Assembly (NCBI GenBank): GCA_021737875.1
Contig: JAIPDD010000004.1
Coordinates: forward strand, 1 to 41,631
DNA length: 41,631 nucleotides
Source of the DNA: Sulfuritalea sp.
GTDB lineage: Bacteria > Pseudomonadota > Gammaproteobacteria > Burkholderiales > Burkholderiaceae_C
Direction of reading: 5' to 3'
This document shows positions 8,428 through 41,631 of this stretch, one piece after another. A program made the translations under genes and the position numbers. Positions within the stretch are counted from its first letter, which is position 1. Each line of letters opens with the position of its first letter. Under the pieces are notes generated by a model. That model saw only the letters and a list, made by a program, of their open reading frames with translations. It was not told the DNA's origin and made no database searches.

Positions 8428-8453
8428 GCATTTTTAACTTTTACTTCCAACCC

Positions 8454-21093: not shown

Positions 21094-22026
21094 CTAAGAC
21101 ACCGTCTGGTAGTACAAGTTTTGCGGATGCTGCGCTTGGGCGAAGAAAAACCAGCGCTCTGGAATGAGTGCACTGGCCTGCATTAAAGCAATCACGGGCC
21201 ACAGCGAAGGGATGTTGTGCGTGATCGCCCACAAGGCCAATAGCGCTGGCGCGACAAACAATCCGACAATAAAAAACCATTTGGTATTTTTCACTACGGC
21301 GAGGCTTGCGCCGTGAAAAAATTCCCGGGTGTTAAAAGCCCCGGCGGACATGCCCATGGACTTTTGCACCAAGCGCTTCGCTGAAATTCCTGTAGCCGAT
21401 TGCAAAGTGGATACGGGCACCAAAGTGGCATTGCGCCGCAGGCTAAGCCAGCGCACCGCACCCGCCAACAGCGTGAGCCACAGCGCACACGGGCCCGCCA
21501 GGGAGAGCAAGGCCTGCTCATCGTAAGAAGCGGCCAAGGCGCAAGCCAACACCGCACCCGAAGACAAACCAATCAACACAAAATTCCACACCGTCAGCGG
21601 GTGCGCCCACTCACGGATAAATCGCAAGCACGCGTAAATCATTGCCGTGCAGTACCACAGGACCAAGGCGCCCACAATCACCACGACAGGCAAGACCTGC
21701 ATGACAAAGCCTTGTACATGCAAAGCCAAAGCCAACCACCACACAGCGACCAAACCGATAAACGCTGGCATCACGATCACTTCGCGCGACATCCAAGACG
21801 TGCGCCACATCAGCACCGCGCGCCAGGCCCGCATCTTGTGGCCCAAATGAAAAAACGACGCCGCCAAGCCCGCGACCAAAAGCACTTCGCCCAAAGCCAA
21901 GGCCTGCAAGAAAAACTCCCTGCCCATTGGAACGCCACACAGCAAGGCAACCGCCAGCGCCACGATCAGGCCTTGGGCAGCGCCCGCCAAGGTCGTGAAA
22001 AAGAGAATCGAAAAAGCCGGATGCAT
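21094..22026 (-). CDS. soeC: Sulfite dehydrogenase membrane anchor SoeC (DmsC family)
   Basis: The 310-aa hydrophobic protein of the DmsC/NrfD-like anchor family has about eight membrane segments. It begins MHPAFSILFFTTLAGAAQGL, which is the usual N-terminus of SoeC/DmsC, and ends in the soluble tail PERWFFFAQAQHPQNLYY. It would anchor the SoeAB catalytic module to the cytoplasmic side of the inner membrane and pass electrons to quinone. It is the last gene of the xsc-pta-soeABC run, 6 nt after soeB. The sulfite role rests on this context, since the sequence alone would also fit a DMSO-reductase anchor. Confidence 0.85.
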   Translation of the reverse strand: MHPAFSILFFTTLAGAAQGLIVALAVALLCGVPMGREFFLQALALGEVLLVAGLAASFFHLGHKMRAWRAVLMWRTSWMSREVIVMPAFIGLVAVWWLALALHVQGFVMQVLPVVVIVGALVLWYCTAMIYACLRFIREWAHPLTVWNFVLIGLSSGAVLACALAASYDEQALLSLAGPCALWLTLLAGAVRWLSLRRNATLVPVSTLQSATGISAKRLVQKSMGMSAGAFNTREFFHGASLAVVKNTKWFFIVGLFVAPALLALWAITHNIPSLWPVIALMQASALIPERWFFFAQAQHPQNLYYQTVS

Positions 22027-22032
22027 AGCGGT

Positions 22033-22785
22033 TTAGCCTTGAGAAGAGGGGGTGATGTGCCGCGGTAAATACATATTGGCCGGCTGGGTTTCCCACTCCG
22101 GCATCAGCGCGTAGCCACCGCGTTCGCGAATGGCTTTGGAGACGTCAGAGTCTGGGTCTTTCACGTCACCAAACAAACGCGCGTTGGTCGGGCAGGCTTT
22201 GACGCATGCCGGTTGGCGGTCTGCCTCGGGCAACAGCTCGTCATAAATGCGGTCTACGCACAGCGTGCATTTGGTCATGACCTGGCGCTCTTCATCTAAT
22301 TCGCGGGCGCCATAAGGACACGCCCATGCGCAGTATTTGCAGCCAATGCACTTGTCGTAATCCACCAAAACGATTCCGTCTTCGGCGCGCTTGTAGCTCG
22401 CGCCGGTAGGGCACACCGGCACACACGGCGGGTCTTCGCAGTGCAAGCAGCTTTTAGGAAAGTGAATGGTGTCGGTGTTGGGAAATTCACCTGACTCGTA
22501 GGTTTGAACGCGGTTAAAAAAGGTGCCTGTCGGGTTGGCGGCATACGGTGCCAAATCGGCCAAGGGGCCAGCGCTACCGGAGGTGTTCCACTGTTTGCAC
22601 GAGGTCACACAGGCATGGCAGCCCACGCACACATTGAGGTCAATCACCAAGGCCAATTGCTTGGCCAATGTCTCGCCCTGTTCGGCGCGAACCCGCTTGG
22701 GCGCTGGCGCAGTCGCAGGGGCGCGCCCTACGGGAGTGTCTTCCACCAAATGCGTTTGCATCAGGTCTTTCAGCCATTGAATCAT
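22033..22785 (-). CDS. soeB: Sulfite dehydrogenase iron-sulfur subunit SoeB
   Basis: The 250-aa ferredoxin-like protein carries four [4Fe-4S] cluster motifs: CVGCHACVTSCKQWN (about residue 53), SCLHCEDPPCVPVCP (about residue 112), CIGCKYCAWACPYGAR (about residue 147) and CTLCVDR with a partner CVKACP later. The arrangement is that of DmsB/PsrB/SoeB electron-transfer subunits. It conducts electrons between the molybdenum subunit and the SoeC quinone site. No signal peptide is present. Its ATG at 22785 overlaps the soeA stop by 4 nt, so translation is coupled and subunit ratios are probably matched. Confidence 0.9.
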   Translation of the reverse strand: MIQWLKDLMQTHLVEDTPVGRAPATAPAPKRVRAEQGETLAKQLALVIDLNVCVGCHACVTSCKQWNTSGSAGPLADLAPYAANPTGTFFNRVQTYESGEFPNTDTIHFPKSCLHCEDPPCVPVCPTGASYKRAEDGIVLVDYDKCIGCKYCAWACPYGARELDEERQVMTKCTLCVDRIYDELLPEADRQPACVKACPTNARLFGDVKDPDSDVSKAIRERGGYALMPEWETQPANMYLPRHITPSSQG

Positions 22786-25751
22786 GGTGTTTTTCCTCCT
22801 GCTTTTTTCTTGCCCGCAAAGTACGTCAAGACACTGGCCGCTTTGCCCACCACGCCCGGAACACTGGGCATGGTGCGCATTTGGGGAAACGTCTCCGCGG
22901 TCTCGTCGGGCTCTGCCGCTCGGATGCGTACGCGCACGTCATACCAACCGGCTTGGCCGGTGATGGGGTCAGAGTTGCTGATAGTTTTACCTTGGTCACC
23001 CAAAGGCAGCTCTTCAGAAATGAGATGGTTGAGCAAAAAGCCTTTGCGCGCTTCGTCAGCACCCGGCGCCAACTGCCACGCACCATCGGCTTTGCCGATG
23101 GCGTTCCAGGTCCACACCGTGCCGGGTTCAACCGCTTCGCTGTAACGGATCATGCAACGCACCTGGCCCCATTGGCTTTCCACCCACGCCCAACCGCCAT
23201 CCAAAATGCCGGCGGCTTTGGCGGTGAGGGGATTCACGTGCAAATAGTTGTGGCTGTGAATTTGTCGCAACCACGCATTTTGCGAATCCCAAGAGTGGTA
23301 CATCGCCATGGGGCGTTGGGTGATCGCGTTCAAAGGATAGGCCGCTAAATCCGTGGCATCTTCTTCCAGCGGCGCGTACCAAAACGGCAAGGGATCAAAG
23401 TAGGTGTCAATGCGCTCGCGCAGGTCCTGCGGCGGCTGGCGTCCCTGGGTTTTGCCTTGCGCGGCCAAGCGAAACGATTGCAAGGTGTCGGAGTAAATGG
23501 CCAGTTGCACCGGATCGTTCTTTTGGCGCCAGCCTTTTTCTTTGGCAAAGTCAAGGTAGTCGCGGTTCCAGTTGCGCATGTAATGCATGCTTTCTGGCAT
23601 GTGGTACTGAAACACGCAGTTGTTTTTTTCGTACGCTTCCCACTGCTTGGGGTTGGGCTCGCCGCGCAAATGTTCATCGCCATTTTTGCCGCGCCAACCC
23701 ATTAAAAACCCAATGCCGGGTTGGGGCTGAAAGTTCACGACAAAGTCGGTATAGCCGGTGTACTTGCGGGTGCCTTCGGGTGTTGTGAATGCGGGAAACT
23801 TCAAGCGCCCCGCCAACTCGATCAACACCTCTTGGAAAGGTTTGCACTCACCCAGTGGCGCGACCACGGGAATGCGCACCGAGTCCACTGGTCCGTCGAA
23901 TTCGGAGATCGGGCGGTCCAGCATGCCCATCACATCATGGCGTTCAAGGTAGGTGGTATCGGGCAAGACCAAATCAGCAAAGGCCACGGTTTCGCTTTGG
24001 AACGCGTCGCACACCACCAAGAAAGGAATCATGTACTCGCCATCGGCATCTTTGCGGTTCAACATCTCGCGCACACCCATGGTGTTCATCGAACTGTTCC
24101 ACGCCATATTGGCCATGAAGATCAGCAAGGTGTCGATGCGGTAGGGGTCGCCCTTGACCGCATTGGTGATGACGTTGTGCATCAAACCATGTGCTGAGAG
24201 CGGGTGCTCCCAAGAAAAGGCGTGGTCGATGCGAATCGGTGAGCCGTCTGGGTTGATGGCCAATTCATCGGGGTGCGCCGGAAAACCCAAGGGCGCTGCG
24301 TTGAGCGGCGTATTGGGTTGAATCATTTCAGGAGAATTGAAGGCGCGGTAGTTGGGAACGATGTGGCGCGGATAAGGCGCTTTGTGGCGAAAGCCCCCAG
24401 GCGCATCGATGGTTCCCAACACGCTCATCAAGACCGCCAAGGCACGCACGGTTTGAAATCCATTGGAGTGTGCAGCTAAGCCCCGCATGGCATGAAAAGC
24501 CAGAGGCCGCGCTTGCGTAGTGGGGTGCAACTTGCCCCACGCGTCGGTCCAAGGAATGGGTAATTCAAAGGCTTGCTTGAGGGCCGCGTCGCCCATTTCT
24601 AGCGCGAGTTTTTCAATCCGCTGCGCATCGATTCCGGTGATAGCTGCAGCCCATTGGGGCGTGCACTCGGCCACCCGGTTGCGCAGCAACTGGAATGCCG
24701 GCGTGACCTTGGTGCCATCGGCCAAGGTATAAAAACCTTGGGCAGGGGCCTCGAGCGCGGGGTCACAACCGTCAGCAATACCTTCAGGGTAGGCGTTGAG
24801 AAGCTGGCCGCTGGTTTTGTCAAAAATGAGTTTGTTGTGGGGGTTGCGGCCGTCGCCGGGCGGGCCCTTGGCAGGATCGGGATCAAAGGCAAACAAGCCT
24901 TCGCGTTCGCCTGCGTCTAACACCACCAGTTGCGGCGCATTGGTAAAGCGTTTTAGAAACGCATGGTCGATCAAATCTTTTTTGATCAAGACATGCAGCA
25001 AAGCCATCAAGAGCGCACCATCGGTGCCGGGCTTGATGGGAATCCACTCATCGGCAATCGCAGAGTAACCGGTGCGCACCGGGTTGATGGAGATAAAACG
25101 CCCGCCGCTGCGTTTGAATTTAGAGATGGCAATCTTCATCGGATTGCTGTGGTGGTCTTCGGCCGTACCCAGCATCACAAACACTTTGGCGCGATCTAAA
25201 TCAGGCCCGCCAAACTCCCAAAAACTTCCGCCTATCGTGTAGATCATTCCGGCGGCCATGTTGACGGAACAAAAGCCGCCATGGGCTGCGTAATTGGGCG
25301 TTCCAAACTGGCGTGCAAACAAACCCGTGAGCGCTTGCATTTGGTCACGCCCGGTGAACATCGCAAATTTTTTCGGGTCGCTTGCACGAATTTTGCCCAA
25401 GCGTTCAGTCAAAATTTCATAGGCTTTTTCCCATGAGATGGCTTCAAATTCTGAGGCGCCGCGCTCGCTGCCGGGTTTGCGCAAGAGGGGCTGCGTTAAG
25501 CGCGCAGGCGACTGCTGCTTCATGATGCCGGAGGCGCCCTTGGCACAAATCACGCCTTGGTTGAGCGGGTGATTGGGGTTGCCGTCGATGTAACGCACCT
25601 CTGGCCCGTTTTCGCCTTCGCGCAGGTGCACCCGAATGCCACAGCGACACGCACACATATAGCAGGTGGTGCATTTGATGGTGGTGTCTGCCGTAGGCGT
25701 TGGCGCTACCAATGGGTTGTGAACCGGCTCAGAAGAAAGAAACTTGAACAC
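22782..25751 (-). CDS. soeA: Molybdopterin sulfite dehydrogenase catalytic subunit SoeA
   Basis: The 989-aa DMSO-reductase-family enzyme starts at a GTG (25751) preceded by AAGGA 7 nt away, inside the end of pta. A [4Fe-4S] site is formed by Cys30-x2-Cys33-x3-Cys37-x31-Cys69, with extra cysteines at 27 and 35. Cys161 in HGGFCSVNMAAG is the probable Mo ligand. No twin-arginine signal is present, so the enzyme faces the cytoplasm. This is typical of SoeA and unlike periplasmic DmsA or PsrA. SoeABC oxidises cytoplasmic sulfite to sulfate and reduces quinone. Its place behind xsc and pta, which generate sulfite, is the main argument against a DMSO- or polysulfide-reductase role. Confidence 0.88.
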   Translation of the reverse strand: MFKFLSSEPVHNPLVAPTPTADTTIKCTTCYMCACRCGIRVHLREGENGPEVRYIDGNPNHPLNQGVICAKGASGIMKQQSPARLTQPLLRKPGSERGASEFEAISWEKAYEILTERLGKIRASDPKKFAMFTGRDQMQALTGLFARQFGTPNYAAHGGFCSVNMAAGMIYTIGGSFWEFGGPDLDRAKVFVMLGTAEDHHSNPMKIAISKFKRSGGRFISINPVRTGYSAIADEWIPIKPGTDGALLMALLHVLIKKDLIDHAFLKRFTNAPQLVVLDAGEREGLFAFDPDPAKGPPGDGRNPHNKLIFDKTSGQLLNAYPEGIADGCDPALEAPAQGFYTLADGTKVTPAFQLLRNRVAECTPQWAAAITGIDAQRIEKLALEMGDAALKQAFELPIPWTDAWGKLHPTTQARPLAFHAMRGLAAHSNGFQTVRALAVLMSVLGTIDAPGGFRHKAPYPRHIVPNYRAFNSPEMIQPNTPLNAAPLGFPAHPDELAINPDGSPIRIDHAFSWEHPLSAHGLMHNVITNAVKGDPYRIDTLLIFMANMAWNSSMNTMGVREMLNRKDADGEYMIPFLVVCDAFQSETVAFADLVLPDTTYLERHDVMGMLDRPISEFDGPVDSVRIPVVAPLGECKPFQEVLIELAGRLKFPAFTTPEGTRKYTGYTDFVVNFQPQPGIGFLMGWRGKNGDEHLRGEPNPKQWEAYEKNNCVFQYHMPESMHYMRNWNRDYLDFAKEKGWRQKNDPVQLAIYSDTLQSFRLAAQGKTQGRQPPQDLRERIDTYFDPLPFWYAPLEEDATDLAAYPLNAITQRPMAMYHSWDSQNAWLRQIHSHNYLHVNPLTAKAAGILDGGWAWVESQWGQVRCMIRYSEAVEPGTVWTWNAIGKADGAWQLAPGADEARKGFLLNHLISEELPLGDQGKTISNSDPITGQAGWYDVRVRIRAAEPDETAETFPQMRTMPSVPGVVGKAASVLTYFAGKKKAGGKTP

Positions 25752-25752
25752 G

Positions 25753-26703
25753 TTAGCGTCCTTTGGATAGTTGGGCCGGGTCGGCCAAGGCCAATACAGC
25801 CAACGCGACGGAAGCCAGGCGCGACTGCAAAGAGTCAGCGCGTGATGTCAACACAATGGGAACCGCAGCGCCGAGCACCAAGCCCGCACAGTCACCGCCG
25901 CCGATGTAGTTGAAACTTTTGTACAGCATGTTGCCGGCGTTGAGGTCGGGCATGATCAGAAGATCGGCGTCGCCTGCCACCTGCGAGTTCATTTTTTTAA
26001 TGCGCGCGGCCACTGCGGAAATCGCGTTGTCAAAACCCATGGGCCCTTCCACTACCGCGCCTGGCCAAGCGCCTTCTTGGGCCATCTGCACCAAGGCCTG
26101 TGCATCCAGGGTTGCGGCAATCGCGGGGTTGACTGTTTCCACCGCCGTCACGATGCCGACCTTGGGGTGGGAGATGCCCAGTTTTTGCAAGAGCGCAATC
26201 GCATTGCCCACAATGTCTTTTTTGGTTTTTAAATCCGGAACAATATTGACCACGCAATCGGCCAAAGCCAACAGTTTGGGGTAGCGCGGCAAATCAAACA
26301 CAAAGGCGTGGCTGATCCGTGTGCTACCGCGCAAGCCGGTGTCTTTGTTCACCACCGCTGACATGAGTTCATCGGTATGCAATGAACCTTTCATGAGCGC
26401 GTGCACCGCGCCACTGCGCGCCAAAGCGGTGGCCTGCAAAGCCGCATGGGGCGCATGCTCTCCCGTGTCTATCAGCTCAAAGTTGCGCAAGTCCACCTGG
26501 GCAGCTTCGGCTGCTTGGGCGATGGCGGTTTGCGGCCCCAGCAAAACCGGGCGCGCCATGGTGCTTGCCAAAATGCGCTGCGCTGCATCCATCGCCAGCG
26601 CATCGCAGGGGTAGACCATGGCCAAAGCAGGAGGCGACTTGCGCGCGCGCGCAACGGCTTGCGCCACCAAGCCATCCAGGCGAGGATGCTTGGGTGTGCT
26701 CAT
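25753..26703 (-). CDS. pta: Phosphate acetyltransferase
   Basis: The start is the ATG at 26703 (MSTPKHPRLDGLVAQAVARA), giving 316 aa, the short single-domain PTA/PTB form that typically accompanies xsc. Landmarks are VHALMKGSLHTDELMSAVVN, LRGSTRISHAFVFDLPRYPK, VEGPMGFDNAIS and MPDLNAGNMLYKSFNYIGGG. It converts acetyl phosphate made by Xsc into acetyl-CoA, recovering energy and carbon from the C2 sulfonate. It lies 35 nt after xsc and ends one base before the GTG of soeA, so it belongs to the same operon. Confidence 0.92.
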   Translation of the reverse strand: MSTPKHPRLDGLVAQAVARARKSPPALAMVYPCDALAMDAAQRILASTMARPVLLGPQTAIAQAAEAAQVDLRNFELIDTGEHAPHAALQATALARSGAVHALMKGSLHTDELMSAVVNKDTGLRGSTRISHAFVFDLPRYPKLLALADCVVNIVPDLKTKKDIVGNAIALLQKLGISHPKVGIVTAVETVNPAIAATLDAQALVQMAQEGAWPGAVVEGPMGFDNAISAVAARIKKMNSQVAGDADLLIMPDLNAGNMLYKSFNYIGGGDCAGLVLGAAVPIVLTSRADSLQSRLASVALAVLALADPAQLSKGR

Positions 26704-26738
26704 CCGTGGGGGCCCATCGTCATCACTGCGCCGCCGAC

Positions 26739-28556
26739 TTAAACGTAGTCTTTGTATTTGTCCAAGAAGCGAATAGGCTTGGCCAAGGCGTCGCGGCGGA
26801 AGGGGTCTCCGAGTTCGCGGGTGCACATGATCTCAATCACGCAGGTCTTGCCTTCTTTCATTTGCATCTCAATCGCACGCTTAAAGGCCGGGCCCACGTC
26901 TTCGAGTTTGTCCACCACAATGCCTTCGGCGCCCATGGCGATGGCAATGCCTGCAAAGCTTTCGCTTTCCAACTCACCGGCCACAAAACGGCGGTTGTAA
27001 AAGTCCACCTGGTTTTTCTTCTCTGCGCCCCATTGGCGGTTGTGAAACACCACCGCAGTCACAGGAATGTCGTGGCGTACGGCGGTCATCAACTCCGACA
27101 TGCTCATGCCCCACGCGCCGTCTCCGGCGTAAGCCACCGCAGGGCGGTCCATGGCCGCGGCCTTGGCACCGATCATGGTGGGCAGCGAGTAGCCGCAATT
27201 TCCAAAACTCATGGGCGCGAAGAAGCTGCGCGGCTCATCAAAGCGCAAATAGCTGTTGGCCACCGCGTTGATGTTGCCAATGTCGGTAGAGACCATCACC
27301 CGCGCAGGCATGGCTTTTTCCAACTCGCGCAGCACTTGGCGGGGATGGAGATAGGTGCCACCGGTGGGGGTGCGCTCGCCCTTGGCTTCGTCAATCATGT
27401 CCAAGCTGTAGGGGTCGCGCTCGTGGGTCCATGCGTCGAGTTCTTTCTCCCAAGCGGCTTTCTCTGCTTGGATGGTTGCCGCACGGTCTGCTTTGGTAGC
27501 GTCACACGCCAGCTTCACCGCGCTTAAACGCTTGAGCAATTCTTTGGCGACCGCTTTGGCATCACCATGGATGCCCACCGTGATTTTTTTCACCAAGCCC
27601 AAATTGGTATGGTCGGCTTCGACCTGAATGATCTTGGCGTCTTTGGGCCAGTAGTCCATGCCGTGCTGAGGTAAGGTTCCAAACGGCCCCATGCGTGAAC
27701 CCAGCGCAATCACCACGTCGGCTTGCGCCATGAGTTTCATTGCCGCTTTGGAGCCTTGGTAGCCCAAGGGGCCGGCCCACAAGGGGTGGCTTGCGGGGAA
27801 GGAATCGTTGCGCAAATAGCCGTTAGCCACCGGTGCGCCCAAGCGCTCGGCCAAGGCTTGGCACTCCGCTACCGCGTCGCCCATCACCACACCACCGCCC
27901 GACAAGATCATGGGGAACTTGGCGTTGGCCAGCAACTCGACTGCGGCAGCCAAGCTGTTTTCACCGCCCGCGCCGCGCTCCACGCGCATGGGCTTGGGAA
28001 TCTCGGTTTGAATTTCGCCGTAAAAATAATCCCGTGGAATATTGAGCTGGGTTGGGCCCATCTCTGACATGGCGCGGTCAAAACAGCGCCCTGTGTATTC
28101 AGCCATGCGCTTGGGGTTATTGACATGGCCTTGGTACTTGGTGAACTCTTGGAACATGGGCAACTGATTGGCTTCTTGAAAGCCCCCTAAGCCCATGCCC
28201 ATGGTGCCAGTCTCTGGCGTGATCATGACCACAGGGCTGTGGGCCCAGTAGGCCGCAGCAATCGCGGTTACGCAATTGCTAATGCCTGGGCCGTTTTGGC
28301 CAATCACCACGCCGTGGCGACCACTCACGCGGGCATAGCCATCGGCCATATGCGCGCCTCCCTGCTCATGCACCACGGGCACCAAGCGGATACCGGCCGG
28401 CGCAAAAATATCCATCGCATCCATAAAGGCTGAGCCCATGATGCCAAAAATATCGGTCACGCCATTGGCAACCATGGTTTCTACAAACGCCTCGGAAGGC
28501 GTCATTTTTTGGACTCCGCTTGCGACGGTGCGGGTATCTTTGGGGGCTTTGGGCAT
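26739..28556 (-). CDS. xsc: Sulfoacetaldehyde acetyltransferase
   Basis: The 605-aa thiamine-diphosphate enzyme has a strong AGGAG site 5 nt before the ATG at 28556. The N-terminal pyrimidine-binding domain includes GVTDIFGIMGSAFMDAMDIF and the catalytic glutamate of VVHEQGGAHMADGYARVSG. The C-terminal pyrophosphate-binding motif is GDGAWGMSMSELMTAVRHDI, with NRQWGAEKKNQVDFYNRRFV after it. These blocks are diagnostic for Xsc among acetolactate-synthase-like proteins. It cleaves sulfoacetaldehyde with phosphate to give acetyl phosphate and sulfite. It is first in the xsc-pta-soeABC run and divergent from an IclR regulator, with IclR-like dyads in the shared upstream region. Confidence 0.95.
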   Translation of the reverse strand: MPKAPKDTRTVASGVQKMTPSEAFVETMVANGVTDIFGIMGSAFMDAMDIFAPAGIRLVPVVHEQGGAHMADGYARVSGRHGVVIGQNGPGISNCVTAIAAAYWAHSPVVMITPETGTMGMGLGGFQEANQLPMFQEFTKYQGHVNNPKRMAEYTGRCFDRAMSEMGPTQLNIPRDYFYGEIQTEIPKPMRVERGAGGENSLAAAVELLANAKFPMILSGGGVVMGDAVAECQALAERLGAPVANGYLRNDSFPASHPLWAGPLGYQGSKAAMKLMAQADVVIALGSRMGPFGTLPQHGMDYWPKDAKIIQVEADHTNLGLVKKITVGIHGDAKAVAKELLKRLSAVKLACDATKADRAATIQAEKAAWEKELDAWTHERDPYSLDMIDEAKGERTPTGGTYLHPRQVLRELEKAMPARVMVSTDIGNINAVANSYLRFDEPRSFFAPMSFGNCGYSLPTMIGAKAAAMDRPAVAYAGDGAWGMSMSELMTAVRHDIPVTAVVFHNRQWGAEKKNQVDFYNRRFVAGELESESFAGIAIAMGAEGIVVDKLEDVGPAFKRAIEMQMKEGKTCVIEIMCTRELGDPFRRDALAKPIRFLDKYKDYV

Positions 28557-28668: not shown

Positions 28669-28719
28669 AAATTGTTCCACTTACTAGTGGATTTTCAGGT
28701 TTTACTTTATGATGCCCGC

Positions 28720-29544
28720 ATGAAATCCGTGACCACCGCCCTCCAAGCCGTCCCGATTGAACTCCACGGCGACACGCCCACGCTGCGTTTGTTTGCCCTG
28801 CTTGAAGTGATTGCGTCCAAAGACCAGTACTTTTCGCTCCAAAGCCTGGTCGACGAAACCGGCCTGCCCAAACCCACCTTGCACCGCATGCTGCAACAAC
28901 TCGAAACAGCACACTTGCTCGAGCGCAGCGGCGATGGGCGCTTGTTTGGCACGGGCGTGCGCTTGCGGCGTTTGGCAGAGAACCTTTTGCTCAATGACAC
29001 TGTGCATGGTGCACGCCACGCGGTGCTGCGCAACTTGGTGACCGAAGTGGGCGAGAGCTGCAACCTCACCGCCTTGAGTGGCAACGAAGTCATTTACATC
29101 GACCGGGTTGAAACCCCGGCGCCTTTGCGCTTTTACTTGCATTCGGGCTCACGCGTTCCGGTGCATTGCTCTGCCAGCGGCAAAATTTTCTTGAGCCAAA
29201 TGCCGCCCAGCCAACGCCTGCGCTTACTCAGCCATGCGCCCTTGGAAGCCTACACCCCGAAAACCATCACCCAGCCCGAGGCCTTAGAAGCAGAAATTAA
29301 ATTGGTCAAGCGCCAAGGCTTTGCGCTGGACAACGAAGAGTTTTTACCGGGCTTGCTGTGTGTGGCCATGCTGGTTCCCGCAAGCGTGGGGCGCTCTAAT
29401 TTATGCATCGCAGTCCAAGCGCCGCTGATGCGCTTAACGGCCGACAAAGCACTGGCCTTGCTGCCCGCTTTGCAACGTGCAGCGGACGCGCTGAGCCACA
29501 TTGAAAATGACGCCATACCCGCCATCGCAGAAGGCCGCGCATGA
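28720..29544 (+). CDS. IclR-family regulator of the sulfonate operon
   Basis: The start is the ATG at 28720 ([20 protein letters not shown]), 274 aa. The N-terminal winged helix contains [20 protein letters not shown] and [20 protein letters not shown]. The IclR effector domain follows, with [35 protein letters not shown] and the conserved [20 protein letters not shown]. Divergence from xsc and the paired dyads between them suggest that it controls xsc-pta-soeABC, perhaps sensing sulfoacetaldehyde, acetyl phosphate or sulfite (inference). Its TGA overlaps the ATG of the CobS-like gene (ATGA), tying the regulator to that module. Confidence 0.87.
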
Positions 29545-30524: not shown

Positions 30525-30534
30525 TGCTTGCGCC

Positions 30535-32342: not shown

Positions 32343-33128
32343 TTGGCTGATCTTTCCGTCATCGAATGGGCGTATGTTTGCGTAGTGGTTTTTATCGGCG
32401 GGCTTGCGCGCGGATTTTCTGGGTTTGGGTTTTCTGCCTTGTGTGTCTCGGGGTTGTCCTTGCTGCTCTCACCTGCCCAAGTGATTCCACCGATTTTTAT
32501 CTTGGAAATTCTGGCCAGTCTGACCTTGTTGCGCCAAGCCCTCAAAGAGGCTGATTTTTCCTGGTTGAGTTGGTTGTTGTTGGGCAACGTGATTTGCATT
32601 CCTCTGGGAATTGCCATGCTTAATTTTGTTCCAGAGATCTATCTGCGCTTGCTCATTGGCATGGTGCTGGTGGTGCTGGTGGGCGTGCAACTTCGCGGGC
32701 TGCAATGGCATGGCAGTCCCACCCGTTTATTTCGCTTGCTCACGGGCTTGGTGGCTGGGCTGGTCAATGGCTTGACGGCGATGGGCGGCCTGGTCGTCGC
32801 GGCCATGATGAGCGCAACGCCTTTGCCCGCCATCGCCATGCGCGCCACCTTGGTCCTTCTTTTTTTCTTCGGCGACTTATACGCCTTGCTGTGCGCGGCG
32901 CTCATGCCCGTCAGCGCCGAAGTGGGCGCGCCCTTGCTTGGCTGGAGCGCGTTGACCATGGCCTTGTTCATGGCCGTTCCCATGGCCCTCGGAATGGCAG
33001 CCGGTCAGCGCTTTTTTACGCATACGACACCGCAACAGTTTCGTCGCCTGGTGTTGCGCCTGTTGATGCTGTTAGCCGTCATCACCGTTGGGCGCTCCCT
33101 CCTGCAACTGGTTGGTAGCGCCGTCTAA
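32343..33128 (+). CDS. tauE: TauE/SafE-family sulfite exporter
   Basis: The 261-aa protein has about eight membrane segments. The reading frame has no ATG at the N-terminus. The TTG at 32343 is preceded by AAGGTG at a 5-nt spacing and gives MADLSVIEWAYVCVVVFIGG, followed by the family block GLARGFSGFGFSALCVSGLS. The second half repeats the pattern (LLTGLVAGLVNGLTAMGGLV). TauE/SafE proteins export sulfite, sulfoacetate or related organosulfur anions. Next to xsc, export of excess sulfite is the obvious role (inference). It lies 83 nt after the CobT-like gene on the same strand. Confidence 0.85.
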   Translation: MADLSVIEWAYVCVVVFIGGLARGFSGFGFSALCVSGLSLLLSPAQVIPPIFILEILASLTLLRQALKEADFSWLSWLLLGNVICIPLGIAMLNFVPEIYLRLLIGMVLVVLVGVQLRGLQWHGSPTRLFRLLTGLVAGLVNGLTAMGGLVVAAMMSATPLPAIAMRATLVLLFFFGDLYALLCAALMPVSAEVGAPLLGWSALTMALFMAVPMALGMAAGQRFFTHTTPQQFRRLVLRLLMLLAVITVGRSLLQLVGSAV

Positions 33129-35037: not shown

Positions 35038-36786
35038 CTAAGGCGCAGTCTTGCAAGGCGTAAAAACCCGCGCCGTGCACTGTGCGCATGTGTCTTGGTT
35101 TAAACGCCGCTTGACGATAACCATGACATCGTCTCCCATGGCAAAGAAGTTGTCTGCGCCTATCGTTGCATAAGCACCGCTGCGCCGCAGCATGTCCATC
35201 GGCTCTTCTTTGACGTTAAAGAGGTAAAGCGCGCCACCGAGTGCGCGACGGCGCTGCGCTTCTTGGGCCAGCATGTGTGCGCCAGTGAGATCTACAAAAT
35301 TAATGCCCGAAGCAACCAGCAAGACATGTGTATGGTGCGGCTCGGTTTCATCGATGCCTTGCAAGGCTTCTTGAAGGTGGTTGGCCGCACCGAAAAAGAT
35401 CGAGCCATTGATGCGCACAATTTTGAGCTGCGGGCAATCTGCCAAACCGGTACTGTCACTAAAGGCAGGCGGCATTTGGCCAGGTACGGGTTTGACGTCA
35501 TCTAAGCTGGGTTGCGAGGTTCGCTTGAGGTACATCAGCAAAGACAAGCCCACGCCGATGTAAATCGCAAATTCCAATGGAATGCTTAAAGTTGCGATCA
35601 ACGTGGCAAACAAAATCGCAGCCTCCGAGCGGCTGGTGCGCACCACCTCACCAATGGCGTGAAAGTCAATCAAACCCCAGGCCACCACAAACAAAATACC
35701 TGCCATCGCAGCCACGGGCAAGTACTTTGCCAAGGGCGCTAAAAACAACATGATCAGCAGTAAAAAGCCAGCGGAATACACGGCAGCCAAAGGCGTTTTG
35801 GCACCCGCGGCTAAGTTCAGGCCGCTTCTGTTAAAGGAGCCGCTCGATGCATAGCCAGAGAAAAAACTACCCGCCAAATTCGACAAACCTTGGCCAATGA
35901 ACTCTTGGTTGCCATCAATGCGCTGCCCGCTTTTAAGGGCCATGGCGCGTGCGATGGACACGGCCTCGGTGAGCGCCAAAAGCGCGACTGCAAACGCAAT
36001 CGGTGCCAGTTGCTGCAAGGTGCTTGCGCTCAAGTCAGGCATCGACAAAGGCGGCAAACCAATCTGCAACGCGCCTATGCTGGTGATCTCCGTGAGCGCC
36101 TCACTCCATTGCGCGTTCAACCCAAAAGCCAACACGCTGCCACTGACCATGCCCACAATCATGTGCGGCACCTTGGGCCACCAGCGCTTGGCTGCAACAC
36201 AACTCACCACCGTCACCAAGGCAACGGCTGTAATAAACCCATTGATGTGCCCGGCTTGTTCAACCACGCTTTGTAAAACTTGGGCCACAGAAGCGCCACG
36301 GGGAATGGCGATGCCAAAAAAATTCTTCACCTGGCTGGCGGCAATCAATACCGCAGCGCCCGCCGTAAAACCCACCACGACCGTGTGCGAAACAAAATTG
36401 ACCAAGGATCCAAAGCGCAGCACCCCGAGCAGCAACTGAAACACGCCGACTAAAAAAGTCAGCGACAGCACCAGCTGCACATACGCTGCGCTGCCGGCCT
36501 CTGCCAAGGGACTCATGGTGGCAAAAACCACAATCGAAATAGCGGTCGTCGGGCCTGATACCAAATGCCATGACGAGCCCCACAAGGCAGCAACCACCGC
36601 AGGCAACATGGCGGCATACAAACCATACTCCGGCGGCATTCCGGCAATCGTGGCAAAGGCCACGCCTTGCGGCACCAAGATCAATCCACCGGTCAGTCCC
36701 GCAATGAGGTCCGCCCGTGAGGTCGTGCGGTTCACGCGCGGCCACCAACGCAAGAGGGGCAACCACGCGGTCCAATCGAATTTCAT
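35038..36786 (-). CDS. SulP-family anion transporter with STAS domain
   Basis: The start is the ATG at 36786 (MKFDWTAWLPLLRWWPRVNR), with AGGAG 9 nt upstream, giving 582 aa. The membrane domain has the SulP entry motif LIAGLTGGLILVPQGVAFAT, then GMPPEYGLYAAMLP and GLSNLAGSFFSGYASSGSFN. About 10-12 helices are followed by a STAS domain from about residue 435 (KIVRINGSIFFGAANHLQEA, then GINFVDLTGAHMLAQEAQRR). SulP proteins move sulfate, bicarbonate or other anions. The divergent tauABC operon and nearby sulfite-oxidising genes make sulfate a plausible substrate, but the sequence alone does not separate it from bicarbonate or a dicarboxylate. Confidence 0.88.
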   Translation of the reverse strand: MKFDWTAWLPLLRWWPRVNRTTSRADLIAGLTGGLILVPQGVAFATIAGMPPEYGLYAAMLPAVVAALWGSSWHLVSGPTTAISIVVFATMSPLAEAGSAAYVQLVLSLTFLVGVFQLLLGVLRFGSLVNFVSHTVVVGFTAGAAVLIAASQVKNFFGIAIPRGASVAQVLQSVVEQAGHINGFITAVALVTVVSCVAAKRWWPKVPHMIVGMVSGSVLAFGLNAQWSEALTEITSIGALQIGLPPLSMPDLSASTLQQLAPIAFAVALLALTEAVSIARAMALKSGQRIDGNQEFIGQGLSNLAGSFFSGYASSGSFNRSGLNLAAGAKTPLAAVYSAGFLLLIMLFLAPLAKYLPVAAMAGILFVVAWGLIDFHAIGEVVRTSRSEAAILFATLIATLSIPLEFAIYIGVGLSLLMYLKRTSQPSLDDVKPVPGQMPPAFSDSTGLADCPQLKIVRINGSIFFGAANHLQEALQGIDETEPHHTHVLLVASGINFVDLTGAHMLAQEAQRRRALGGALYLFNVKEEPMDMLRRSGAYATIGADNFFAMGDDVMVIVKRRLNQDTCAQCTARVFTPCKTAP

Positions 36787-37089
36787 GCTCAAATTTCTCC
36801 TAGGGATAAACCCGTAACCACATGGTGTTGCAAGGACACAGAATGCCATTGTTTTTTAACGGCATCGTGGGCAGATCACCAATGAAAAATGCACCAAATT
36901 GCGCCATGGCTTGGCACCAGTCCAGTGCAGTTTACGCGGGTTAACTGGCACTATAAAGGCATTCAACTGGCTCTACTCCCAAACCATGTCCGCGTACAAA
37001 CTTATAAGCTCATGCGGTAATGTTGTGTGAGCAGGCGTAGCATGAGTCCCCGTACATCGATACGCTTATTTTTTAACTGAAGGACCCTT
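36787..37089. promoter_or_regulatory. Divergent control region between sulP and tauA
   Basis: This 303-nt region has no credible gene. It holds the palindrome GCCATGGC at 36903-36910, a CTGGAC hexamer on the minus strand at 36920-36925, and a direct-repeat pair at 36943-36975 (listed separately). GCGTA/TACGC at 37035-37065 form a weak 5-bp stem followed by a T-rich run in the presumed tauA leader. GAAGGA lies 6 nt before the tauA ATG. No guanidine-riboswitch signature was recognised. Promoter boxes are not clear enough to call. Confidence 0.5.
36943..36975. promoter_or_regulatory. Direct repeat AACTGGCNCTA x2, 22 bp apart (candidate TauR/MocR operator)
   Basis: AACTGGCACTA (36943-36953) and AACTGGCTCTA (36965-36975) match at 10 of 11 positions and repeat every 22 bp, about two helical turns. 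MocR-type regulators such as TauR and GabR bind direct repeats of CTGG-containing motifs. The MocR gene at the right edge of the window is the natural candidate protein. Confidence 0.5.
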
Positions 37090-38109
37090 ATGAAAAAATC
37101 TGTGCTCCCCGTTCTTTCGAAGACTCTGGCCGGCTTGCTCGTGGCTGTGGGTATGGTCTCCGCTTTTGCGCAAGCAAAAAAGGAAGTGACCTTTGGCCAC
37201 CAAGACATGCAATTGCCTTGGCGCATCTTGATGGATTCTGAGCTTGAAAAAGCCACCGGTTACAAAATTAACTACCGCATGTTTGGCGGCGGCGGTGAAG
37301 TGATCAAGGCCATGAGCTCTGGTGACGTGCAAATTGGCGAAATTGGCTCCAGCCCCTTGGCGACAGCAACCAGCCAAGGCCAAGACCTGCGCTTGGTGTA
37401 CATCATGGATGACATCGCAGCTTCTGACCAATTGATTTCGCGAAACGGCGCTAGCGTTAACAGCTGGAAAGACTTGGTCGGTAAGAAAGTGGGAACGCCT
37501 TTCGCTTCCACCGCACATTACTCTCTTATGGTGGGTATGCGCCTTGAAGGTGTCGATGCCAAGAGCGTTAACGTGATGAACCTGACACCCCCCGCGATTG
37601 CAGCGGCTTGGGAGCGTGGTGACATTGATGCGGCATTCATTTGGGACCCCGTTTTGTCCAAAATCAAGCGCAACGGCAAGAAACTTGCCGACTCCGGCGA
37701 CATGGGCAAAAAAGGCTACCCCACCTTTGACGGCCTGGTTGTCGACGCGAAATGGGCGGCACAAAACCGTGACTTCATTGTTGCAGCCATCAAAGCCATT
37801 AGCAAAGCAGACGCCGACTACCGTGCCAATGCAGCGAAATGGACTGTGGGTTCTCCTCAGTTGAAGGCCATTGCGAAATGGACCAAAGCGGACGAGAAAG
37901 ACATTCCAGATGCTATGAAGGCGTTTGCCTTGCCAACACCGGCAGAGCAACTCTCTAACGCATGGTTGGGCGGCGGAGCTGCCGGCGGAGCTGCCAAAAC
38001 CTTGGAAAACAGCGCCAAGTTGTGGAAAGAAATTGGCCGTATCACGGACGTCAAGTCTGACTACGGCGTTTTCATTGACACCAGCTACTTGCGCGATGCC
38101 ATGAAGTAA
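37090..38109 (+). CDS. tauA: Taurine-type ABC transporter substrate-binding protein
   Basis: The 339-aa periplasmic protein has a Sec signal peptide (MKKSVLPVLSKTLAGLLVAV, cleavage near AFAQA at residue 30). The mature chain shows strong TauA features: VIKAMSSGDVQIGEIGSSPL, TPFASTAHYSLMVGMRLEGV and NLTPPAIAAAWERGDIDAAF. It would bind taurine or a similar aliphatic sulfonate or amine and deliver it to TauC. Because a ureohydrolase sits at the end of the operon, the ligand could also be a guanidino analogue. GAAGGA precedes the ATG at 6 nt. A strong terminator follows the gene and would make TauA more abundant than TauBC. Confidence 0.92.
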   Translation: MKKSVLPVLSKTLAGLLVAVGMVSAFAQAKKEVTFGHQDMQLPWRILMDSELEKATGYKINYRMFGGGGEVIKAMSSGDVQIGEIGSSPLATATSQGQDLRLVYIMDDIAASDQLISRNGASVNSWKDLVGKKVGTPFASTAHYSLMVGMRLEGVDAKSVNVMNLTPPAIAAAWERGDIDAAFIWDPVLSKIKRNGKKLADSGDMGKKGYPTFDGLVVDAKWAAQNRDFIVAAIKAISKADADYRANAAKWTVGSPQLKAIAKWTKADEKDIPDAMKAFALPTPAEQLSNAWLGGGAAGGAAKTLENSAKLWKEIGRITDVKSDYGVFIDTSYLRDAMK

Positions 38110-38136
38110 TTGGGTAACTGGTTACCGAGACCCAAC

Positions 38137-38170
38137 AAGGGGCGACTACGCATTAGTTCGCCCCTTTTTT
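38137..38170 (+). terminator. Intrinsic terminator inside the tau operon
   Basis: AAGGGGCGACTA and TAG-T-TCGCCCCTT form a 12-bp stem with one bulged T and a 5-nt loop, followed by TTTTTT. It stands between tauA and tauB with no new obvious promoter. Partial readthrough is the likely mode for tauBC and the ureohydrolase. A GGTAAC-TG-GTTACC palindrome at 38113-38126 lies just upstream. Confidence 0.8.
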
Positions 38171-38195
38171 ATTTGACTCTTTTTTTGACATAGAC

Positions 38196-38984
38196 ATGCC
38201 TACATTGAACATCAAGGACTTGACCTTAAATTACGCCATCAAAGGCGGAACTTTACAAGCGCTCGCTCCTGTCAACATGACCATGCACGACGGAGACTTT
38301 GTCGTTGCCCTGGGTGCATCGGGTTGCGGTAAAACCACGCTGCTCAATTGCATTGCCGGTTTTTTACCCCCCTCTTCGGGTGAAATATTGCTGGATGGCC
38401 AGCCCGTCGTAGGCCCTGGCGCAGACCGCGGCGTGGTCTTTCAAAAGCACGCCCTGATGCCTTGGCTCAATGTGCTTGACAACGTCGCCCTGGGTTTGCG
38501 CTTGAGCGGCGTCAACAGCGCAGCTCGCAACCGTATCGCCATGGAAAAACTCGGCCTCGTCGGCTTAGAAGCCTATGCCGAACGCGCGGTGTACGAACTC
38601 TCTGGCGGTATGCAACAGCGCGTAGGTATTGCCCGCGCTTTGGCAAGTGACCCCGCCGTGTTGTTAATGGACGAACCCATGGGCGCGTTGGATGCGTTTA
38701 CCCGTGAAACGGTTCAAGAAATTTTGCTGCGCGCTTGGGCGCAGTCCAACAAAATGGTGTTCTTTATTACCCACTCGGTAGAAGAAGCCTTGTTCTTGGC
38801 CACCCGCTTGATTGTGATGAGCCCCAGCCCCGGTCGCATCACCCACACCTATGACAACGTTCCGTTCTCGCGTGAGTTTTTATCCCACGGCGATGCGCGC
38901 AAAGTAAAGTCAGAACCCGAATTCATCCGCATGCGCGAAGAAGTCCTTGCCATCATTCACAACCGGGAGGCCGTCCATGTCTGA
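38196..38984 (+). CDS. tauB: Taurine-type ABC transporter ATP-binding protein
   Basis: The 262-aa nucleotide-binding subunit has Walker [12 protein letters not shown] (about residues 42-52), signature [15 protein letters not shown], Walker [13 protein letters not shown] and the switch histidine in [11 protein letters not shown]. The block [16 protein letters not shown] in the Q-loop region is typical of the nitrate/sulfonate/taurine importer family. It hydrolyses ATP on the cytoplasmic side of the TauC dimer. The ATG at 38196 has no strong ribosome-binding site and lies 26 nt after the T-tract of the intra-operon terminator, so its expression may be low. Its last 8 nt overlap tauC. Confidence 0.92.
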
Positions 38985-39810
38985 TGCCCGCACCACCACA
39001 AACCCATCCGCTCCACTGAAGACCAGTGCCTTCAAGGTGCCTGGTGAAGGCTCCAGCCTCTACATCAGCCTCACAACCATCGGCATCATGGCGGTGCTTT
39101 GGTATATCGCTACCAACTACGGCTGGATCAAACCGATCTTCTTGCCTTCGCCACAAGCGACCTACCAGCAGTTTTACGAGTACCTTACTGGTATTGCCAA
39201 TGACAAGCCGCTGTGGGAGCATTTCGCGGCCAGTATGCTGCGCGTTTTCTCGGCCTTTGCTTTGGGCTGCGTAACGGCGATTCCTATTGGTATTGCCATG
39301 GGGATGTCGCGGGTTTGGAAAGGGATTTTTGACCCCCCCATTGAGTTGCTGCGCCCACTACCCCCCTTGGCCTATTTGCCACTCATCATCATTTGGTTTG
39401 GCATTGGTGAAGTTCCCAAAGTCTTGCTCATTTTCTTGAGCTGCTTTGCGCCTTTGGCCATGGCCGCGCGTTCCGGTATGCGCAGCGCCTCACAAGAACA
39501 GATGAACGCGGCGTACTCCATGGGCGCGTCTTACAGCCAAGTGATCCGCCACGTTGTTTTACCCGCCGCCATGCCTGAGATTTTGGTGGGTATGCGCGTG
39601 TCCATTGGCTTTGGTTGGAGCACCTTGGTGGCCGCTGAAATGGTGGCTGCGAACGTGGGCTTGGGCCAAATGGTCTTGAACGCGTCGAACTTTTTACGCA
39701 CCGACATTGTGGTGATGGGCATCATTGTGATTGGCTCCGTGGCGTATTTGTTTGATTTATTGATGCGCTGGGTTGAGGACAAAGTGGTGCCCTGGAGAGG
39801 CAAAGTCTGA
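38977..39810 (+). CDS. tauC: Taurine-type ABC transporter permease
   Basis: The ATG at 38977 has GGGAGG 7 nt upstream and lies inside the end of tauB, giving a 277-aa protein ([20 protein letters not shown]). It has six membrane segments, beginning [17 protein letters not shown], and the permease EAA loop near [20 protein letters not shown], followed by [20 protein letters not shown]. It forms the inner-membrane channel of the importer with TauB. Its stop shares a base with the ureohydrolase start (TGATG), so the enzyme is made in step with the transporter. Confidence 0.91.
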
Positions 39811-40784
39811 TGGCGAATTCTTTTTTCACGCCGATAACGGGCTCCGTCATGCCCCGCTTTGCGGGCTTGGCAACGCTGATGCGCTTGCCGTATGTCGGGT
39901 TTGACGATGCGCAATTTGCCAATGTTGACATTGGCCTGATTGGTGTGCCTTGGGACGGTGGCACCACCAACCGCCCTGGCGCGCGCCACGGGCCACGCCA
40001 GGTGCGCGATATATCCACCATGGTTCGCAACGTCAACCGAGCCAGCGGCTTGAAGCCTTTTTCTATTTGCAATTGCGCCGACCTGGGTGACACGCCGGTC
40101 AACCCGGTGGACTTGATGGATTCGCTGCATCGCATCCATGCGTTTTATGACAAGGTGTGTGCTGCAGGGATTGCGCCTTTGTCGGTCGGGGGAGACCATT
40201 TGGTCTCGCTTCCCATCATGCGTGCTTTGGCTAAAAATGGGCCCATTGGGATGGTGCATTTTGATGCCCATACCGACACCTGGGATGGCTACTTTGGCGG
40301 CTTCAAGTACACCCACGGCACTCCGTTTCGCCGGGCGATTGAAGAAGGTCTGTTAGACCCCAAACGCACGATTCAAATTGGAATTCGCGGTGCGCTCTAC
40401 AGCGACGCAGAAGACACCTGGGGCCAAGAGCAAGGCATTCGCGTGATTGATATTGACGAGTTTCATGCCATGGGTCTTGAAGCCGTGATGGCCGAAGCGC
40501 GGCGCGTGGTTGGCGACGGGCAAACCTATGTCAGTTTTGATGTGGATGCCTTGGACCCGGTGTACGCACCTGGCACAGGCACCCCAGAAATTGGTGGGCT
40601 GACAACGCTTGAGGCGCAGCGCATGGTGCGGATGCTGCAAGGGCTGAACTTGGTGGGCGGCGACGTGGTTGAAGTGTCTCCGCCATTTGACCCCAGCGGC
40701 AACACCGCGCTGGTAGCAGCCACCATGATGTTTGAAATTTTGTGCGTGCTGGCCGACAGCGTGAGCAAAAAGAAAAGCGCTTAA
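39810..40784 (+). CDS. Agmatinase-family ureohydrolase, guanidinopropionase-like
   Basis: The 324-aa enzyme has all arginase-fold Mn ligands: His130 (GGDH), Asp152, His154 and Asp156 (FDAHTD), and Asp244 and Asp246 (SFDVDALDP). The N-terminal block IGLIGVPWDGGTTNRPGARH and the SVGGDHLVSLPIMRAL segment are, from memory, closest to Pseudomonas 3-guanidinopropionase (GpuA). Tyr161 in WDGYFGG sits where GpuA has the Tyr said to set specificity for short substrates; guanidinobutyrase has Met there. It would split an omega-guanidino acid into an amino acid and urea. Coupling to tauC points to taurocyamine or 3-guanidinopropionate (inference). Guanidine hydrolase is an alternative, but those proteins usually have a longer N-terminus and hypAB-like neighbours, not seen here. 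Confidence 0.85.
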   Translation: MANSFFTPITGSVMPRFAGLATLMRLPYVGFDDAQFANVDIGLIGVPWDGGTTNRPGARHGPRQVRDISTMVRNVNRASGLKPFSICNCADLGDTPVNPVDLMDSLHRIHAFYDKVCAAGIAPLSVGGDHLVSLPIMRALAKNGPIGMVHFDAHTDTWDGYFGGFKYTHGTPFRRAIEEGLLDPKRTIQIGIRGALYSDAEDTWGQEQGIRVIDIDEFHAMGLEAVMAEARRVVGDGQTYVSFDVDALDPVYAPGTGTPEIGGLTTLEAQRMVRMLQGLNLVGGDVVEVSPPFDPSGNTALVAATMMFEILCVLADSVSKKKSA

Positions 40785-40791
40785 ACCGGCC

Positions 40792-41631
40792 TTAAGCCAG
40801 CAACTGCAGTTTGCGCCGGGGCGTGCCCCGTGCGCGGGCCAGCGCATCCATCGCCAAGCCCAAGGCTTTGATGCCATCGGAGATTTGCTCAGCGGCAATC
40901 GACGACAAGCGCAACCGAAAGTAGGGGCAGGGGTAGGGCGGGCTCATAAAAAACGCCTCGCCTGCTTCAATCAAAACGCCATGCTCGCGCGCAATCAGCG
41001 CCAGCTCCGCAGAGTCCACCCAGTCCGGCGCACGCACCCAGACGGATGCGCCGCCGGAGGGCAGGGTAAATTCAAAATCTGGCAGGTACTTGGCCAAGGC
41101 GCGCGCCACCAAGGCCATGCGCTCTTGCATGGCGTGGTTAACGCGCCGGGCGTGCGCGTCATGGTGGCCCAAGGAAAGAAACAGCGCAAACGTGTGCTGC
41201 AAAAACGCACTGGGGTGGCGCACCATTGCGTGGCGCAACTCGCGCAGCTCGGCAATCAACGCGCGGGGTGCGACGATATAGCCCAACCGCAAGGTGGGCG
41301 AGAGGCTTTTTGAGACTGAGCCCACATAAATTACCCGGCCCACTTTGTCCAAGCTCTTGAGCGCAGGCATGGGGTCGCCTTCGTACAGGTTTTCTGCTTC
41401 GTAGTCGTCTTCAATGACTACAAAATTTTGAGCCTCGGCTTTTTTCAGCAACAGCTTACGCCGCTCTAAGCTCAGCGTGCTGGTCGTGGGGCTTTGGTGC
41501 GACGGCGTCACGAAAACATAGTCCACCGCCGGCATGCGCTCCACCACCAGGCCTTGTTCGTCTACCGCCACCGGAACACAACGCGGATGGCGTAAAGCAA
41601 AACTGTTGCGGGCGTGCGGGTGGCCCGGCTC
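40792..41631 (-). CDS. MocR-family (TauR-like) regulator, aminotransferase domain, partial
   Basis: The reading frame stays open from the stop at 40792 to the window edge, so the N-terminus (expected GntR helix-turn-helix) lies outside. The visible 279 residues are a fold-type I aminotransferase-like domain with YVFVTPSHQSPTTSTLSLER, FVVIEDDYEAENLYEG, the PLP lysine in YVGSVSKSLSPTLRLGY and FRLRLSSI near the C-terminus. MocR proteins use PLP as co-sensor for an amine ligand. TauR senses taurine and GabR senses GABA. It converges on the ureohydrolase 7 nt away and is the likely reader of the direct repeats upstream of tauA. Confidence 0.85.
   Translation of the reverse strand, partial: EPGHPHARNSFALRHPRCVPVAVDEQGLVVERMPAVDYVFVTPSHQSPTTSTLSLERRKLLLKKAEAQNFVVIEDDYEAENLYEGDPMPALKSLDKVGRVIYVGSVSKSLSPTLRLGYIVAPRALIAELRELRHAMVRHPSAFLQHTFALFLSLGHHDAHARRVNHAMQERMALVARALAKYLPDFEFTLPSGGASVWVRAPDWVDSAELALIAREHGVLIEAGEAFFMSPPYPCPYFRLRLSSIAAEQISDGIKALGLAMDALARARGTPRRKLQLLA

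Follow-up and report, generated by a model that had tools for sequence, protein, structure and literature searches.

GpuA of Pseudomonas aeruginosa (PDB 3nip and 3niq) is a 3-guanidinopropionase that acts as part of a gpu cluster, and the activity classed as EC 3.5.3.17 is noted as slow on taurocyamine. Cereibacter sphaeroides 2.4.1 pB carries what we take to be the studied taurine cluster, with a MocR regulator, an NTF2-like and flavin adenine dinucleotide (FAD) protein pair (which of the two is TauX and which TauY is likewise our assumption), xsc, an exporter, pta and a TRAP importer, and with no ureohydrolase in the stretch compared. The human ureohydrolase GDAH/AGMAT acts on taurocyamine, has a capping Arg in one variant, is mitochondrial and belongs to no operon, and is described as closer to GbuA (PMC9772407); according to the same source, taurocyamine accepts phosphate in certain lower animals and occurs in human fluids, and taurocyamine kinases are described from flukes (PMC3836730, PMC12702037). 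In line with the initial annotation, whose author knew of no described bacterial taurocyamine hydrolase operon, we found neither such a hydrolase nor such an operon in the titles and abstract openings of the open-access PMC literature surveyed. Here we analyse a stretch of 41,631 nucleotides from Sulfuritalea sp. (assembly GCA_021737875.1, contig JAIPDD010000004.1; hereafter the window), in which the genes of a TauABC-type importer are followed by that of a GpuA-type ureohydrolase, and for which, judging from sequence comparison, taurocyamine is the best-supported candidate substrate, with a probability of roughly 0.65.

The tauABC genes (37090-39810, + strand) run directly into the complete ureohydrolase gene (39810-40784, +), the A of the tauC stop TGA (39808-39810) being the first base of the ureohydrolase ATG; upstream, the tauC ATG at 38977 falls inside the end of tauB. 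Coordinates, open reading frames and family assignments all held for what had been annotated as a complete TauABC importer joined to an agmatinase-family enzyme by a TGATG overlap. In five printed relatives, a GTG overlapped by the tauC TGA was taken by eye as the enzyme start. In two relatives a RidA-type gene lies directly 3' of the ureohydrolase gene (L037 11345-11743; L218 1473-1847), which is not the case at that place in the window.

When compared with PDB entries, the ureohydrolase scored highest with GpuA (454 bits), ahead of GbuA (338), proclavaminate amidinohydrolase (227), E. coli agmatinase (212) and guanidinase (155). The alignment with GpuA and GbuA that had been proposed in the initial annotation, made here with 20 sequences, likewise put GpuA closest (64% identity) ahead of GbuA (49%), identity to nine orthologs of the genus being 85%. 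All metal ligands (H130, D152, H154, D156, D244 and D246) and the catalytic residues H169 and E288 are present, as the annotation had stated for the metal set, and its GpuA-like pocket residue was confirmed, Tyr161 of the motif WDGYFGG being aligned with GpuA Tyr157 at a site, occupied by Met161 in GbuA, that presumably sets substrate preference. Arg73 lines up with Arg72 of GbuA, a residue that forms a cap over the active site of the adjacent subunit and might touch the acid group (PMC9772407). The metal and catalytic residues, the pocket Tyr and the capping Arg are shared with GpuA, from which the window enzyme differs in that its gene is joined to tauABC within a taurine locus. Together, the metal and catalytic residues, the capping Arg and the closeness to GpuA point to a GpuA/GbuA-like guanidino-acid ureohydrolase. 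Among family models, the agmatinase model TIGR01230 was passed (193 versus 174 bits) and the subfamily model NF002564 was missed (286 versus 302 bits). In a quick tree of 130 rows, whose reading is limited by long branches and 46 open forks, the enzyme grouped with its own genus and Aminobacter SR38 in a clade of 13 rows (support 98), nested in a group of 62 rows (support 90) that also contains GpuA and Paraburkholderia rows. No relatives were found in viral contigs.

As for the importer, TauA passes TIGR01729 narrowly (306.6 versus 304.25 bits), and for TauB and TauC the taurine-type models are the best ones, with scores under their curated cut-offs (322 versus 357 and 276 versus 342 bits, respectively). 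Window TauA is 33% identical to E. coli TauA (PDB 6ssy) and keeps Q30, G61, G79, T132, W176 and D205, differing at the amine ligand Glu106, which is Asp; in E. coli, Glu106 contacts the taurine amine and its Ala mutant is non-binding (PMC6906117). Asp at this position was seen in 9/9 compared enzyme-linked TauA sequences of the genus, while a second TauA type of the genus has Glu.

The window breaks off inside a regulator gene. Contig C90 of the same genome (L213) has an exact 50-base overlap with the window end (41582-41631), ends in the N-terminal part of this regulator, and also carries a tauX-tauY-like pair, which the assembly break conceals from the window. In the loci of the genus that extend far enough (L031, L032, L033, L035, L036, L037, L039 and L040), the regulator and a TauX-like gene follow in 8/8 and TauY in 6/8, giving a conserved order of SulP, tauABC-ureohydrolase convergent with the regulator, and tauX-tauY. 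The names TauX and TauY rest on homology to the C. sphaeroides pB cluster: the pair of Paracoccus sp. IB05 is 73% and 84% identical to its NTF2-like and FAD proteins, respectively, and TauY of the genus is about 52% identical to that of IB05. No taurine dehydrogenase model of NCBIfam was found for the FAD protein, for which aminophosphonate or pipecolate oxidase models were best, below cut-off, and none matched the NTF2-like protein. The regulator shares 43% identity with its pB counterpart and 44% with a further MocR protein from the genus; its position and the operator described below suggest a TauR.

A direct repeat of the form CTGGCNCTA-N13-CTGGCNCTA stands before tauA in 9/9 upstream regions read. 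In the 11 genomes of the genus that encode the enzyme, the exact pattern occurs nine times, every copy about 110-145 bases 5' of tauA (tauA is missing from G004, and in G002 the contig does not reach the region before the gene); allowing up to two mismatches, 55 matches (9 exact and 46 further) were obtained versus 15 for a reversed control. The same architecture, CTGGACCTA-N13-CTGGACATA with the same 22-bp period, lies between the regulator and the TRAP genes of C. sphaeroides pB, and the boxes of the genus resemble, without being identical to it, the Rhodobacter capsulatus TauR consensus CTGGACYTAA (PMC5320631). Looser pairs of CTGG motifs, at a spacing of 22 or 23 bases, are found 5' of tauX in 6/6 relatives as well as in the own genome. 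A second, weak match lies in the window at 22282-22312 (3 mismatches), and no operator pair was found before xsc.

The survey of adjacency and xsc co-occurrence that had been suggested was run within the genus (37 genomes), where an ortholog with 84-86% identity is present in 11 genomes, the own one included. In nine of these, again counting the window, tauC or the full tauABC adjoins the ureohydrolase gene; in the remaining two, the locus is cut by a contig end (G018) or tauABC is missing (G004). Xsc is encoded in 10/11 genomes with the enzyme versus 2/26 without it (G016 and G026), an association whose Fisher p of 1.9e-6 is descriptive only, as the genomes are related. TauY was found in 12/37 genomes, nine of them among the 11 with the enzyme. 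AptA, the omega-transaminase at 7051 that had been put forward as a downstream step, is near-universal (31/37 genomes; 10/11 with the enzyme and 21/26 without), and was rejected as a specific taurine step.

The closest relative seen, G026 (Xsc 99%, AptA 96%), has SulP, the exact operator pattern, tauABC, the regulator and tauXY arranged as in the window, without the ureohydrolase gene: the locus has none, and this 77%-complete genome gave no match. Compared in 100-base steps, the tauA start and signal peptide (93-100%), tauB (88-97%), the regulator part (85-95%) and also the promoter are conserved between the two (85-100% for the conserved parts overall), versus 52-76% for mature tauA and 64-74% for the first third of tauC. 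Between G026 and the window, a difference in the importer regions that face the ligand thus goes along with presence or absence of the hydrolase. TauA of G026 is 85% identical to the second, Glu106-bearing TauA type, which is carried by 5/11 genomes of the genus. Elsewhere, lone TauA of this second type lie near CuyA-looking genes in L189 3336-8925 (G034), which also holds HpsN, and in L191 1223-5256 (G010); by eye, on which these names too are based, the neighbouring genes resemble cysteate or sulfopropanediol catabolism.

Outside the genus, the enzyme family is linked to taurine genes as follows: (i) in Paracoccus sp. IB05 (L107, L196), a LysR gene flanks the unit ureohydrolase-SSS symporter-tauX-tauY-xsc-YeiH-type exporter-pta, (ii) in a metagenome-assembled genome (MAG) of the Rhizobiaceae group (L125), pta-xsc-MocR precedes ureohydrolase-tauA-tauB-tauC, an imperfect operator pair being seen by eye before the ureohydrolase gene where a scripted search listed none, (iii) in Rhodobacter viridis (L194, L195), the ureohydrolase gene adjoins soeAB, followed by tauCBA, an aminotransferase, a MocR regulator, and xsc starting about 15 kb off, (iv) on an Aminobacter SR38 plasmid, a LysR gene flanks ureohydrolase-tauA, and (v) on Paraburkholderia plasmids (L205, L206, L208), the ureohydrolase gene is convergent with tauCBA. 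The enzymes of IB05, L125 and R. viridis are placed in other branches of the 130-row tree. On L208 (6210-9942), an M20 hydrolase, a urea carboxylase-associated gene and a cupin also lie by the ureohydrolase gene. In a set of 80 homologue loci, taurine markers stand within 7 kb in six (L060 and L061 from the own genus, L065 with TauABC about 4 kb off, L107, L125 and L133). Since Xsc is present anyway in 24/43 genomes hand-picked from those behind the 80 loci, its nearness in 2/80 loci is by itself modest evidence, and the gene orders weigh more.

Taken together, a conserved taurine-type locus with an added guanidino-acid hydrolase is real, and taurocyamine would best fit its importer, operator, neighbours and co-occurrence. 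We favour this substrate because of (i) the stop-start coupling and the conserved gene order, (ii) the 50-base overlap joining the window to its own tauXY contig, (iii) the operator, present in 9/9 regions and of the same architecture in C. sphaeroides pB, (iv) Xsc, which tracks the enzyme while AptA does not, (v) the joint variation of the TauA binding domain and the hydrolase, (vi) the tau linkage in IB05, L125, R. viridis and Aminobacter SR38, and (vii) human GDAH, of the same superfamily, which is described as hydrolysing taurocyamine efficiently (PMC9772407). The initial proposal of import and hydrolysis feeding C2-sulfonate metabolism is thus strengthened by the regulator and tauXY neighbours, the TauR-type operator, the Xsc co-occurrence, G026 and the other lineages, and loses the 7051 transaminase as its specific next step. 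Beyond the substrate, we lean slightly towards a dedicated bacterial taurocyamine system, in which taurine loci, with TauABC or an SSS symporter, would have acquired GpuA-type ureohydrolases on several occasions and where, within the genus, a module of the TauA binding part, part of TauC and the hydrolase would be gained or lost together, switching between taurine and taurocyamine.

Several observations weigh against this reading. GpuA, 64% identical to the window enzyme, is a 3-guanidinopropionase; G004, a 99%-complete genome, has an 85% ortholog with no TauA or Xsc match; the G026 comparison is a single pair of loci; the best NCBIfam model for the regulators of both the window and L125 is PdxR, which the window fragment matches with a score under the cut-off; and TauA of L125 is well under the TIGR01729 cut-off (165 versus 304 bits). 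TauA Asp106, considered as a diagnostic mark, was rejected, as Asp also occurs in alphaproteobacterial TauA, and Glu is retained in the TauA linked to the enzyme in Aminobacter and Paraburkholderia. Gemmobacter fulvus has the LysR-ureohydrolase-SSS unit of IB05 type with no adjoining tau genes. Of 224 matching plasmid records, 11 were chosen by hand and 10 examined (L204 was left out), of which four are tau-linked (L200, L205, L206, L208) and six are not (L201, L202, L203, L207, L209, L210). Neither TauA nor Xsc lies nearby in any of seven loci from the own order (L053-L059). Finally, in a broad draw of 297 genomes from the order to which the Rhizobiaceae-group MAG belongs, a search at E <= 1e-110 located 50 places, spread over 49 genomes with the MAG among them (four of these genomes also underlie loci of the 80-locus set). 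Inspected as far as about 7 kb, or up to where the contig stopped, and with Xsc counted from at least 35% identity, the other 49 places showed TauA, Xsc, TauXY or SoeAB in 0/49. As the linked lineages stand beside these plasmid records, own-order loci and broad-draw places, the taurine linkage is an occasional, repeated association within the family, whose usual role is probably with other guanidino acids. In the broad draw, an HpsN-like gene occurs in two places and a YeiH-type exporter-like gene in two (48% and 34%); two loci with the former and one with the latter (L249 11437-12735, L286 3397-4677 and L257 7986-9014, respectively) present possible links to other sulfonates. In G004, three ureohydrolase genes lie in a row (L038 14959-17998), with 34%, 43% and 85% identity to the window enzyme.

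The best surviving alternative, which we nevertheless regard as unlikely, is a plain 3-guanidinopropionase served by a TauABC-family transporter of altered specificity, the products being beta-alanine and urea and the route being finished by AptA and the dehydrogenase at 7051-9959. Both of these are indeed in the window, yet AptA is found throughout nearly the whole genus and Xsc is not; the enzyme has GpuA as its top PDB match, with the pocket Tyr and the larger clade in common, and other members of the family often have NitT/TauT-type transporter genes close by, whereas here the TauA sulfonate ligands are conserved and the locus has a taurine-type operator and taurine-type neighbours; and G004 retains the enzyme without Xsc, while IB05 and L125 place it in xsc clusters. 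Still less probable is that tauABC imports taurine only and that the ureohydrolase, a broad guanidino-acid scavenger for nitrogen, is in the operon by chance: the tau link recurs in separate tree branches and the TauA binding domain and the enzyme differ together in G026, even though the family is widespread and has many neighbours, and TauA retains most of its taurine ligands. An agmatinase or guanidinase is very improbable despite the passed TIGR01230 cut-off and plasmid relatives annotated as speB, given the far higher score with GpuA, the alignment of R73 with the acid-capping R72 of GbuA and, for guanidinase (GdmH is described with Thr and Trp at two specificity sites; PMC11410670), the lack of an Rfam match, hence of a guanidine riboswitch, in seven sources, although such a riboswitch is not obligatory for guanidinases.

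Features of the window are compiled in Table 1. The xsc, pta and soeABC-like genes annotated nearby are present, together with a TauE-type gene, and CobS-/CobT-like cobaltochelatase subunit genes (29541-32259) lie between this gene and xsc. The annotated joint expression of uptake and hydrolysis agrees with the stop-start overlap of tauC and the enzyme gene and needs correction at tauA, which is probably expressed above the following genes because a hairpin with a T run separates it from tauB. This hairpin was spotted by eye in 6/6 printed gaps; the window copy, the only one folded, gave -17.5 kcal/mol (z -4.6). It is absent from the list of a simple terminator scan of 36850-40900 (5 terminator-like sites versus 5.7 expected), and a simple promoter scan of the same region gave 0 sites (2.2 expected).

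Table 1. Positions of the taurine-type locus and of related features in the window.
Feature	Position	Strand	Remark
AptA omega-aminotransferase and methylmalonate-semialdehyde-type dehydrogenase	7051..9959	+	used by the rival beta-alanine reading
soeABC-like molybdo-oxidoreductase, FeS and anchor subunits	21094..25751	-	Soe name suggested by context
pta, phosphate acetyltransferase	25753..26826	-	true start probably internal
xsc, sulfoacetaldehyde acetyltransferase	26739..28556	-	TIGR03457, 1037 versus 676 bits
IclR-type regulator adjoining xsc	28672..29544	+	
TauE/SafE-type exporter	32343..33128	+	
SulP-type anion transporter	35038..36849	-	divergent from tauA, retained in relatives
Tandem direct repeat CTGGCACTA-N13-CTGGCTCTA	36945..36975	+	22-bp period; likely operator of TauR-type MocR regulator
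tauA, periplasmic binding protein	37090..38109	+	Asp in place of Glu106, other taurine ligands retained
Terminator-like hairpin and T run in the tauA-tauB gap	38137..38170	+	fold of window copy; by-eye reading
tauB, ABC ATPase	38196..38984	+	profile match
tauC, permease	38977..39810	+	ATG 38977 likely; overlaps tauB and ureohydrolase start
GpuA-type ureohydrolase, proposed taurocyamine hydrolase	39810..40784	+	324 amino acids; homology, residues, tree
MocR-family TauR-like regulator, C-terminal part	40792..41631	-	cut by contig end; rest on contig C90 (L213)

Taurine dissimilation itself is a described pathway (PMC5320631), into which the locus could be read as follows. The TauR-type regulator would, judging from operators and position, control tauABC-ureohydrolase and tauXY; the variant TauA, with TauBC, may import taurocyamine and perhaps taurine too; and the GpuA-type dinuclear-metal ureohydrolase would split taurocyamine into taurine and urea. 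By the known chemistry of the families named, TauXY would convert taurine to sulfoacetaldehyde, Xsc would cleave the latter to sulfite and acetyl phosphate, Pta would form acetyl-CoA, the SoeABC-like enzyme would oxidise sulfite, and the exporters would remove the anion. Urea would go to urease where present: the alpha subunit (E < 1e-50) was found in 7/13 genomes tested, including all five with at least 95% completeness, and was not found in the window's genome (82% complete).

If true, this would be an undescribed bacterial route for using taurocyamine, an energy-storage compound of some invertebrates, and, with taurine passed on to Xsc, the hydrolase would make carbon, nitrogen and sulfur all available from a single compound. 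It would also give meaning to some of the genes labelled agmatinase, and the loci of window type and G026 type would form a natural pair for how an ABC importer changes its ligand.

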